64,000 bases of DNA from Pyrobaculum neutrophilum V24Sta (GTDB taxonomy: Archaea > Thermoproteota > Thermoprotei > Thermoproteales > Thermoproteaceae). The position numbers and the translations under genes are program-made. The first letter of the stretch is position 1. Every line of letters starts with the position of its first letter. The stretch is from contig NC_010525.1 of assembly GCF_000019805.1 (NCBI RefSeq), positions 1 to 64,000 on the forward strand, written 5' to 3'. The notes beneath the pieces are model-generated. The model was not told where the DNA came from. It did no database searches and saw only the letters and a program-made list of their open reading frames with translations. Positions 32,978-40,338 of the stretch are shown one piece after another.

Positions 32978-33715
32978 TCAGCCGCGGAGCGTTATGACGG
33001 CGATCTTCGTAGCGGGGTACTGGCCCATCTCGTCTTTTTCCCACTTCTTCACCATATCCCAAATGGTGAGGAGCGCCACGCCAACTGCGAAAAGAGCCTC
33101 TGGTGCTGGCGACATGTCTCTGGCCTTTACAGTGGCTGTGGCCTCGACGCGGCTCCCCGCCTCTATGTCGATCTTGAAGTGTTGGATGGAGGGGCAGGGG
33201 CCGCCCAGGAGCTCGCACAACCTCTTGGCGTTTAAGGCGGCGGCGGTCTGCGCCGCATATATCGGATGTCCCTTCTCCACAGGTCCCTTCGCCAACTCGA
33301 CGTTTCTCAACACCATTTCCCCATATGCCGAGGTCTCTAGATCGCCGCCTCTGGCAAAAGGCGTCTCCTGTAGCGGCCCGGCCGAGAGGTCCGGCGGCGC
33401 CTCCCCCTTCTTTTTGACGTCTACAGAGAGATTTCTTATTGTTTCTATGCCGGAGGCCACGGAGCCGACCAAGGCCCCAAATAGGACGTCCATCTCAACC
33501 CCCGTCTGCCACTCGGCGGCTCCCTCAACGTAGAGCTTGCCGCCTCTGCATCCAGCCGAGGCGCGTAGAGGCAGAGGATGTAGGAAGGGCAGATATCTGT
33601 ACGCCTGTAGGGCGGCCCGCGCCGCGACCGACGTGTTGCACCGCTCCGCGGCCACCTCCGCGGAGGCCACGGCGTATCTATACACGTCCGGCTTCCTAGA
33701 TACGTCGACGATCAT
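32978..33715 (-). CDS. Tandem MoaC-like protein (molybdopterin precursor synthesis)
   Basis: 245 residues from ATG 33715, whose ATGA overlaps the stop of the gene upstream; a GTG at 33724 is also possible. The N-terminal half starts IVDVSRKP like MoaC and keeps the LHPLPL histidine (His46) and TGVEMD (71-76), but lacks the YDM-x-K stretch. The C-terminal half (about 125-245) is a second MoaC-like copy: it keeps NAKR (162-165) and IWDMVKK with Asp220/Lys223 but has lost both HPL and TGVEM. Normal MoaC is one domain of about 160 residues. A composite active site is likely. Confidence 0.8.
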
Positions 33716-34041
33716 TGGAAGCACCTCTCGGCGTCGGAGTAGAGCCTCGCGAGCTCGGCTTTAGAGAGCTTGCGCCTCTCCGCCCTCTGGATGAGTATCT
33801 TAGCCGCCAGCAACCTCGCGTTTTTCTCGTCCAGCTCCTTCATCAGCTGGGCTAGAAGCTCCTCGCAACTCTCCGCCGGGGCGTCTATGTACTTCTCGAA
33901 AAGCTTAGCCTTCTTTATATCCGTCTCGATCCACGTGTAATCGACGTGGGGTATAGCCCATCTATGTCCACAGCGACGACAGAGAAACTCGTTGCTAGGC
34001 AGAAGGGCGACCTCTCTAGAGCCGCACTTGGGGCAAGACAC
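33712..34041 (-). CDS. Zinc-ribbon protein
   Basis: 109 residues. The zinc ribbon uses CPKC (residues 3-6) and CRRC (21-24), followed by a helical C-terminal domain [20 protein letters not shown] with [20 protein letters not shown]. It is coupled to moaC by a 4-base overlap. The fold could bind nucleic acid or a partner protein. No family is recognised. Confidence 0.72.
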
Positions 34042-38959: not shown

Positions 38960-39376
38960 GTGGCGGTTAAAGTCAAGATGCGCATCTGGGTTGACAAAGA
39001 TGGGCAGGAGATCTTGGGCCCCGGCATCTACAACATCTTGAAAGCGCTGGAGGAGACCGGGTCTATCGCCTCGGCGGCGAGAAAGCTGGGATATTCATAC
39101 AAATTCATATGGACATATATAAAGAAGCTTGAGGACGCGTTAGGCGTGCCCCTCGTGGAGTCCCGCCGGGGCGGCAAGGAGAGGGGGGTCACGGAGCTGA
39201 CGGAGGTGGGCAAGCTGCTCGTGGCCTACTACGAGTCTATGAATAGGGAGTTGGAAAACGTTGTGAAGACTTGGGAATCTAAGTTCTCCGAGCTCGTGGC
39301 TACGCTTGAGCAGTACTCCAAGGAGGCGAAGGAGGAGGGGGGCGGAGAGGAGATCCCCTACTACGAGGAGGAGTGA
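38960..39376 (+). CDS. ModE-like winged-helix regulator
   Basis: 138 residues from GTG 38960, after TATA GTATTTTAATAG. The LysR/ModE N-terminal HTH is clear: ILKALEETGSIASAARKLGY, then SYKFIWTYIKKLEDALGVPL and ESRRGGKERGVTELTEVGK. The C-terminal part is a charged coiled coil and there is no molybdate (TOBE) domain. Being convergent with moaA, with a 16-base overlap, it may control molybdenum or tungsten cofactor genes, which is inference. Confidence 0.86.
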   Translation: MAVKVKMRIWVDKDGQEILGPGIYNILKALEETGSIASAARKLGYSYKFIWTYIKKLEDALGVPLVESRRGGKERGVTELTEVGKLLVAYYESMNRELENVVKTWESKFSELVATLEQYSKEAKEEGGGEEIPYYEEE

Positions 39377-40338
39377 ACGCCGCCTGAGGGTACGCCCGGC
39401 TCCGCTGGGCGTGCCAGATACAGCTTAAACCTCGGCTCTCTCTGCGCCAACGCGGTTTTTACGGCATATAGCAACCCCTCCTCGTCTCTAGCCTTGATGA
39501 GGGGCATCAGATCAACGCTCGGCTCTGCGTATATGCAGGTCTTAAGTTTTCCATCGCTCGTCAGCCTCATGGTGGTGCATCCGCTACAGAAGGAGGCGTT
39601 GCCGTAGTTCTTTATCAGCTCTATGGCCACCCCCGCGAGCACGTAGATAGGCCTGTTGTGTAGCTCCTTCCTCAGCTTGAGAGGTCTACCGCCCAGCTCC
39701 GCTACGGCCTTGGCCACCGTCTCAACCGGCTCGTAGTACTGTTCGAAGACGTGGGCACCCTCGCCCGTAGGCATAAGCTCTATGAACTGCAACGACGCGT
39801 CTAACGACGCCGCCAGCTTGACCAGCTCTTTTACGCTGTCTCTATCCGTGTTTACGCCCCTAAGCACAACGACATTTATCTTCAGGGAGATGCCCAACGA
39901 CCTAGCCTCGCGGAGGCCGCGTAGGACGGCCTTTAGAGCGGCCGGCGGCGCCCCGGTGACCTTCGAATACATGCCCGGATCCGTCGAGTGTACAGAGACG
40001 TTGACCCTCTGGAGGCCGGCGGCGGCGAGCTTCGCCGCCCACCTCTCCAGCAACAAGCCGTTTGTGGTAAGCGTAACGGCGCCCCCCGTCTTAGCTATGT
40101 TGTACACCACGGCGTCTATGTCCCGCCTCAGCAGAGGCTCTCCCCCCGTTATCTTGAAGTCGGAGACCCCCACCTTCCTGAAGACAGAGGTGGCGAAGCC
40201 GTAGTCTTCGGCGGTCAGGTAGACCCCCCGGCGCCGGGCCTGCCCCTCGAAGTGGCAGAAAATGCAACTGTAGTTACACTCGTCGTTTAGGATATACCTA
40301 AGCTTCAGGAAAGGTCTCCCGTATCTGTCAAACAACAC
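39361..40338 (-). CDS. moaA: GTP 3',8-cyclase MoaA
   Basis: A 325-residue radical SAM enzyme making the first molybdopterin precursor with MoaC. The N-terminal cluster is CNYSCIFC (Cys21, 25, 28), with GGEPLLRRDI and NVSVHST; the C-terminal cluster is CSGCTTMRLTSDGKLKTC. The start is GTG, about 30 bases after TATA ATATATTTAATC. The usual C-terminal Gly-Gly is not at the very end: the tail reads VPSGGVHSSS, so GG is followed by five extra residues in the overlap with the ModE-like gene. Confidence 0.94.
   Translation of the reverse strand: MLFDRYGRPFLKLRYILNDECNYSCIFCHFEGQARRRGVYLTAEDYGFATSVFRKVGVSDFKITGGEPLLRRDIDAVVYNIAKTGGAVTLTTNGLLLERWAAKLAAAGLQRVNVSVHSTDPGMYSKVTGAPPAALKAVLRGLREARSLGISLKINVVVLRGVNTDRDSVKELVKLAASLDASLQFIELMPTGEGAHVFEQYYEPVETVAKAVAELGGRPLKLRKELHNRPIYVLAGVAIELIKNYGNASFCSGCTTMRLTSDGKLKTCIYAEPSVDLMPLIKARDEEGLLYAVKTALAQREPRFKLYLARPAEPGVPSGGVHSSS

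Follow-up and report, generated by a model that had tools for sequence, protein, structure and literature searches.

Tandem MoaC of Pyrobaculum-like archaea, a probable pseudo-dimer with catalytic residues partitioned between two degenerate halves

Introduction

Single-domain MoaC (PF01967; PDB 2ohd, 1ekr, 4pya, and 4fdf) is a hexamer arranged as a trimer of dimers (PMC3602415), and the "hexamer of dimers" given in an earlier note on the DNA studied here was in error. The same note held that the active sites are built from two chains, and this is correct. In a model of Mycobacterium tuberculosis MoaC2 based on the GTP complex of the T. thermophilus enzyme, the ligand is held by Lys62, Asp137, and Lys140 of chain A, with a further contact supplied by His88 of chain B (PMC3602415). 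These four residues align with K51, D128, K131, and H77 of the Escherichia coli enzyme, whose numbering is used below for alignment positions. The lysine equivalent to K67 has a structural role between dimers and makes no ligand contact, and the last helix is placed at the dimer interface (PMC3602415).

MoaC also occurs fused to other enzymes of molybdenum cofactor synthesis, and models exist for MoaC/MoaB (PRK03604), MoaC/MobA (PRK14500), and MoaC/MOSC (PRK14499); MOCS1AB is a further MoaC-containing fusion (PMC9607355). All of these combine MoaC with another activity, whereas the gene described here joins MoaC to MoaC. It resembles single-domain MoaC in its fold elements, catalytic residues, and partnership with MoaA, but has two units per chain and has apparently lost one of the two interface sites.

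Comparable histories are known from unrelated enzymes. In class III adenylyl cyclases, the C1 and C2 domains form pseudo-dimers in which one active site is composite and the other is degenerate. The fold and chemistry are unrelated to those of MoaC, and the degenerate cyclase site took on a regulatory role, for which the tandem MoaC gives no indication. Mention of the C1 and C2 domains is made in PMC3838963. The archaeal tRNA-splicing endonuclease exists in homotetrameric and fused homodimeric types, the latter through duplication and fusion with subfunctionalised repeats (PMC6379350). The likeness here is that of duplication, fusion, and subfunctionalisation in archaea; however, the endonuclease is an unrelated enzyme in which one half stays catalytic, whereas the halves of the tandem MoaC split the residues of a single site.

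Results

The analyzed window is the 64,000-nucleotide stretch at the start of contig NC_010525.1 of Pyrobaculum neutrophilum V24Sta. The tandem MoaC-like gene that the earlier note had proposed in it, from the letters of the DNA, was confirmed by profile searches (Table 1). An alternative GTG start lies three codons upstream of the ATG and would give a protein of 248 aa. Half 2 matched the Pfam MoaC family with 66 bits (E 4e-18; cut-off, 27 bits), and half 1 by itself scored 24.4 bits (E 3e-5), slightly below the cut-off. A profile of four half-1 sequences aligned by hhalign to one of six single-domain MoaCs gave a probability of 97% (E 1e-10) over residues 2 to 106, and the gaps in this alignment were exactly the KGD loop, which carries K51, and the DM-x-K end of the last helix, which carries D128 and K131. 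The motif contents described earlier therefore stand, HPL and TGVEMD without DM-x-K in half 1, and NAKR and WDMVKK without HPL or TGVEM in half 2. Several features had been missed, namely the KGH motif with K148, the N-terminal D4/K8/R13, the C-terminal K101/K103, and the fact that neither half has C76.

Table 1. Coordinates of the tandem moaC gene, its parts, and moaA in the window
Feature	Coordinates	Strand	Description
Tandem moaC fusion gene	32978..33715	-	ORF, 245 aa; ATG at 33715, stop at 32978 included
Half 1, residues 1-108	33392..33715	-	MoaC-like unit; hhalign and Pfam
Half 1 N-terminal motif D4...K8....R13	33677..33706	-	E. coli D17, K21, R26
Half 1 HPL, residues 46-48	33572..33580	-	H46 = E. 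coli H77, partner-chain ligand contact (PMC3602415)
Half 1 TGVEMD, residues 71-76	33488..33505	-	E. coli T109-E114
Half 1 C-terminal KKK, residues 101-103	33407..33415	-	K101, K103 = E. coli K147, K149
Linker between halves, residues 109-127	33335..33391	-	Lowest-confidence internal stretch of the AlphaFold2 model
Half 2, residues 128-245	32981..33334	-	MoaC-like unit lacking HPL, TGVEM, and the N-terminal motif
Half 2 KGH	33266..33274	-	Catalytic-lysine motif; K148 = E. coli K51
Half 2 NAKR, residues 162-165	33221..33232	-	K164 = E. coli K67, structural inter-dimer lysine
Half 2 WDMVKK, residues 219-224	33044..33061	-	D220, K223 = E. coli D128, K131
Half 2 EKDEMGQYP	33014..33040	-	Last-helix tail, like archaeal single MoaC
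moaA (radical SAM GTP 3',8-cyclase)	39361..40338	-	Pfam Radical_SAM and Mob_synth_C

The full protein missed two equivalog cut-offs, that of TIGR00581 (55.6 versus 141.5 bits) and that of PRK12343 (86.6 versus 171 bits). Because these models describe a single complete domain, the protein is called a MoaC-derived variant and not plain MoaC. An AlphaFold2 model of the fusion, built from an alignment of four sequences, the window protein and those of three other loci, had a mean pLDDT of 61 and was too low in confidence for an overlay. Its top Foldseek matches were MoaC chains, with alignments of about 125 to 130 columns, which fits one MoaC unit; the closest solved relative was the Sulfolobus tokodaii MoaC (2ohd, E 3e-8).

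For the residue analysis, 37 first halves and 37 second halves, from tandem proteins of three families, were aligned with 11 single MoaCs including that of E. coli, whose numbering was checked against K51, H77, D128, and K131. Three draft genomes with broken frames (G012, G016, and G021) were excluded from the counts. The residues were divided between the halves without exception. All 37 first halves kept D17, K21, R26, H77, P78, T109, G110, E112, M113, L116, K147, and K149, and all 37 had lost K51 and D128. All 37 second halves kept G32, K51, G52, K67, W127, D128, K131, E134, and K135, and all had lost D17, K21, P78, E112, and K147, with R26 present in only 2 of them. No residue conserved in single MoaC was invariant in both halves of the 37 proteins. 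Recurrence in every tandem protein means that the partition is not due to chance. It also shows the conservation among relatives that the earlier note had suggested checking, over a much wider range than was supposed there. Two other positions set the halves apart. The C76 that never varies in single MoaC has been replaced by Leu in all first halves and is missing from all second halves, and position 114 is Asp in every half 1 with Glu in half 2.

The degree of partition differed between families. Among the 31 columns invariant in single MoaC, the window protein retained 12 in half 1 only, 10 in half 2 only, 3 in both, and 6 in neither. The corresponding numbers for a Vulcanisaeta-like protein (G015) were 8, 9, 13, and 1, which resembles a less advanced stage of this decay. 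Retention in half 1 and in half 2 was negatively correlated over the 31 columns (Spearman -0.64, P 1e-4), a value that is descriptive only because the columns are non-independent and the lineages share ancestry. Many of the common losses are explained by one early event. The telling point is that the later, lineage-specific losses always fall on the same side, with H77, T109, and G110 lost from half 2 and K131 and the K51 loop lost from half 1. For example, the Vulcanisaeta-like family retains H77 in half 2 and K131 in half 1, and in the Pyrobaculum family half 1 has lost the K51 loop and the helix end with D128 by deletion, as half 2 has the G110 position.

The ligand contacts K51, H77, D128, and K131 are each present as one copy, K148, H46, D220, and K223, split between the halves. 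The kept residues can meet in principle, in that the fusion divides K51/D128/K131 from H77 as MoaC chains do, and their meeting in one site would be compatible with the published chain assignment (PMC3602415). Since the structures split the Lys/Asp/Lys set and the His in the same way as the halves, a single complete site can be formed, and its counterpart would be dead. In the Pyrobaculum family, all four contact residues fall to one interface site and none to its mirror. The earlier proposal of one composite site and one dead site is thus strongly supported by sequence together with published structure. Of the kept motifs, NAKR contributes no ligand contact, its lysine being the structural K67 (PMC3602415). 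The segment from T109 to K131 is itself divided, with its front retained by half 1 and its back by half 2. E112 and D128 lie 16 residues apart in it and, if the segment is one straight continuous helix, would be separated by about 24 A within a chain, so that a site using both would need two units. We presume that E112, K21, R26, and K147 act from the partner side, given the partition and the E. coli work; the chain assignment of residues other than the two lysines, the aspartate, and the histidine is likewise presumed, from geometry.

The tandem gene is the single MoaC locus of the genome, which is one contig and 99.98% complete. The earlier note had proposed looking for a second, normal single-domain moaC, and none was found in a whole-genome search of this complete genome; the same search readily found intact single MoaCs in other genomes, at E values of about 1e-50. 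In addition to moaA (Table 1), the genome encodes, at places outside the window, MoaE, three MoeA proteins, and three tungsten/molybdenum oxidoreductases of the aldehyde:ferredoxin-oxidoreductase type. With the pathway genes present and no other MoaC, the pathway has MoaC only in its tandem form. MoaA and MoaC were jointly present in 37 of the 44 genomes of the class and jointly absent from the other 7. The latter (G045, G051, G052, and G054 to G057) apparently lack molybdenum/tungsten cofactor synthesis.

Both halves are under purifying selection. The dN/dS was below 0.2 in both halves for every pair with unsaturated dS, the values for half 1 and half 2 being 0.06 and 0.17 (G029-G035), 0.12 and 0.07 (G038-G042), 0.19 and 0.09 (G002-G005), and 0.02 and 0.10 (G015-G018). 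Gene order was fixed in Pyrobaculum-like genomes as idi2, a zinc-ribbon gene, moaC, and glyA. In the window, the stop codon of a TFIIB-like zinc-ribbon small-protein gene (33712-34041, minus strand) overlaps the moaC start (ATGA), and this neighbor pair was kept in all of the Pyrobaculum-like loci compared.

The tandem form was found in every MoaC-bearing genome of the Pyrobaculum-/Thermoproteus-like family (f1), complete genomes included, and in the Vulcanisaeta/Caldivirga-like family (f3). Another family of the same order (f2) has a normal MoaC of 157 aa. At the class level, there was one more tandem genome, G048 of family f7, which lies outside the order and whose protein (L060:1024-1905) shows the same residue partition. 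All other genomes with a match in a sample of 220 from the phylum had one MoaC match each, among the matches listed. The second half of the Vulcanisaeta-like tandem scored 120 to 130 bits against Pfam MoaC, and, judging from the residues kept, this family represents a putative intermediate state. One Thermoproteus-like genome (G041, L046:2016-2755) has the two halves in two overlapping frames. We considered a working two-gene version. None of the codons ATG, GTG, and TTG, however, occurs ahead of KGD in the half-2 frame, and the arrangement is therefore read as a frame change, caused either by an error in sequencing or by damage of recent date.

In a tree of 78 rows, the first halves formed one clade (support, 100/100) and the second halves another (89/94), and the internal branching of the two was similar. 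When 34 motif columns and the long rows were removed, the first halves were still together (100/99), and the second halves formed one group in 46% of bootstraps. A single fusion is favored because the first halves form one clade, and the best reading of the sequences would be one fusion with continuing decay. Placement was unsure for the long branches f3g6, f1g3, and f7. In a ribosomal protein L2 tree, G048 adjoined G047, which has a single normal MoaC, outside f1 and f3. The halves of G048 nevertheless grouped with other first and second halves, respectively, and C76L and E114D are common to all 37 first halves, so that its fusion reflects either descent with loss in its neighbors or transfer.

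Discussion

With a probability of about 0.85, the tandem MoaC is the cyclic pyranopterin monophosphate (cPMP) synthase of this organism, in a duplicated and fused form with one composite site. An ancestral moaC would have been duplicated in tandem and then fused, so that a single chain came to hold both halves of the former homodimer. The homodimer would have had two equivalent interface sites, each with K51, D128, and K131 from one subunit and H77 from the other; we infer that the N-terminal D17/K21/R26, the T109-E114 loop, and the C-terminal K147/K149 belong to the side of H77. After fusion, one site may have been retained and the other left free to decay, so that the Lys/Asp/Lys residues now come from half 2 and those of the partner from half 1. 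The site would form within one chain (in cis), three fused chains would assemble into a pseudo-hexamer that has three sites where the ordinary hexamer has six, and the fused enzyme would be active. We have filed the protein as a fused, subfunctionalised MoaC variant that is predicted to work like MoaC. It is likely, too, that in these heat-loving archaea a core cofactor enzyme has turned into a clade-wide obligate pseudo-dimer with one composite site per chain (three per pseudo-hexamer), that its lineages keep successive stages of decay, and that it is the first such MoaC to be described.

The place where the site forms is open to another reading, in which half 1 of one fused chain pairs with half 2 of another, the hexamer looks like any other, and fusion fixes the stoichiometry only. 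The residue partition fits pairing in cis and in trans equally, and the linker of merely ~20 residues in the Pyrobaculum family, longer in the Vulcanisaeta-like family, speaks for trans. However, fused dimer partners are the simplest path to complementary decay, and we regard pairing in trans as unlikely. It would be a different matter if both halves still had working sites through substitute residues missed by the alignment, as might be suspected from the H77 kept in half 2 and the K131 kept in half 1 of the Vulcanisaeta-like proteins. This is highly improbable, since every tandem protein lacks K51 and D128 in its first half and E112 in its second, and the deletions in the Pyrobaculum family remove the K51 loop and the D128 helix end of half 1 and the G110 position of half 2. 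The K51 and D128 variants deposited as PDB 4pya and 1eks, the former a K51A-substrate structure, also count against substitutes. We take both variants to be inactive.

A MoaC paralogue that had lost cPMP synthase activity and had some other role, cPMP then coming from an unrelated enzyme, would account for the missed equivalog cut-offs and for the full catalytic set being in neither half. It would leave unexplained why all the ligand contacts of the published structure (PMC3602415) are kept once, in the halves that the structure requires, why co-occurrence with MoaA is perfect, and why the less decayed Vulcanisaeta-like tandem has a half 2 that scores so well against Pfam MoaC; a paralogue of this kind is improbable. 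That the gene is a pseudogene in decay or an artefact of assembly is scarcely credible. The frame break between the halves in G041 and the broken copies in three draft genomes are what such a process would leave, but the same arrangement is found across the MoaC-bearing f1 and f3 genomes, complete ones included, both halves are under strong purifying selection, and gene order is conserved in the Pyrobaculum-like genomes.

Duplication, fusion, and subfunctionalisation as such are known, and for MoaC they are apparently undescribed. No tandem MoaC was found in literature titles and abstracts (Pyrobaculum, fused, archaea), which, at the partial coverage of the search, is weak evidence of novelty. 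The fusion is of use as a natural experiment that tells apart the two residue sets of each MoaC site, for residues kept in half 1 must belong to one side of the interface and those kept in half 2 to the opposite side. A MoaC with one site per chain would permit the mutation of one site alone, unlike the ordinary hexamer with its six linked sites. The families would also offer a graded series from a homodimer to an obligate asymmetric pseudo-dimer, with decay running, if this reading is true, from a Vulcanisaeta/Caldivirga-like form that is half-symmetric to a Pyrobaculum-like form that is fully asymmetric. A practical consequence is that genomes of this clade can seem MoaC deficient under equivalog-level annotation.

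In Thermoproteus-like relatives, the tandem moaC adjoins moaA with a ModE-like gene in between. The same gene, for a ModE-like HTH regulator, is present in the window (38960-39376, plus strand), where it converges on moaA and the 3' ends overlap by 16 bases. In one f3 draft genome (G012, L047:725-1978), moeA lies directly upstream of the broken tandem moaC.
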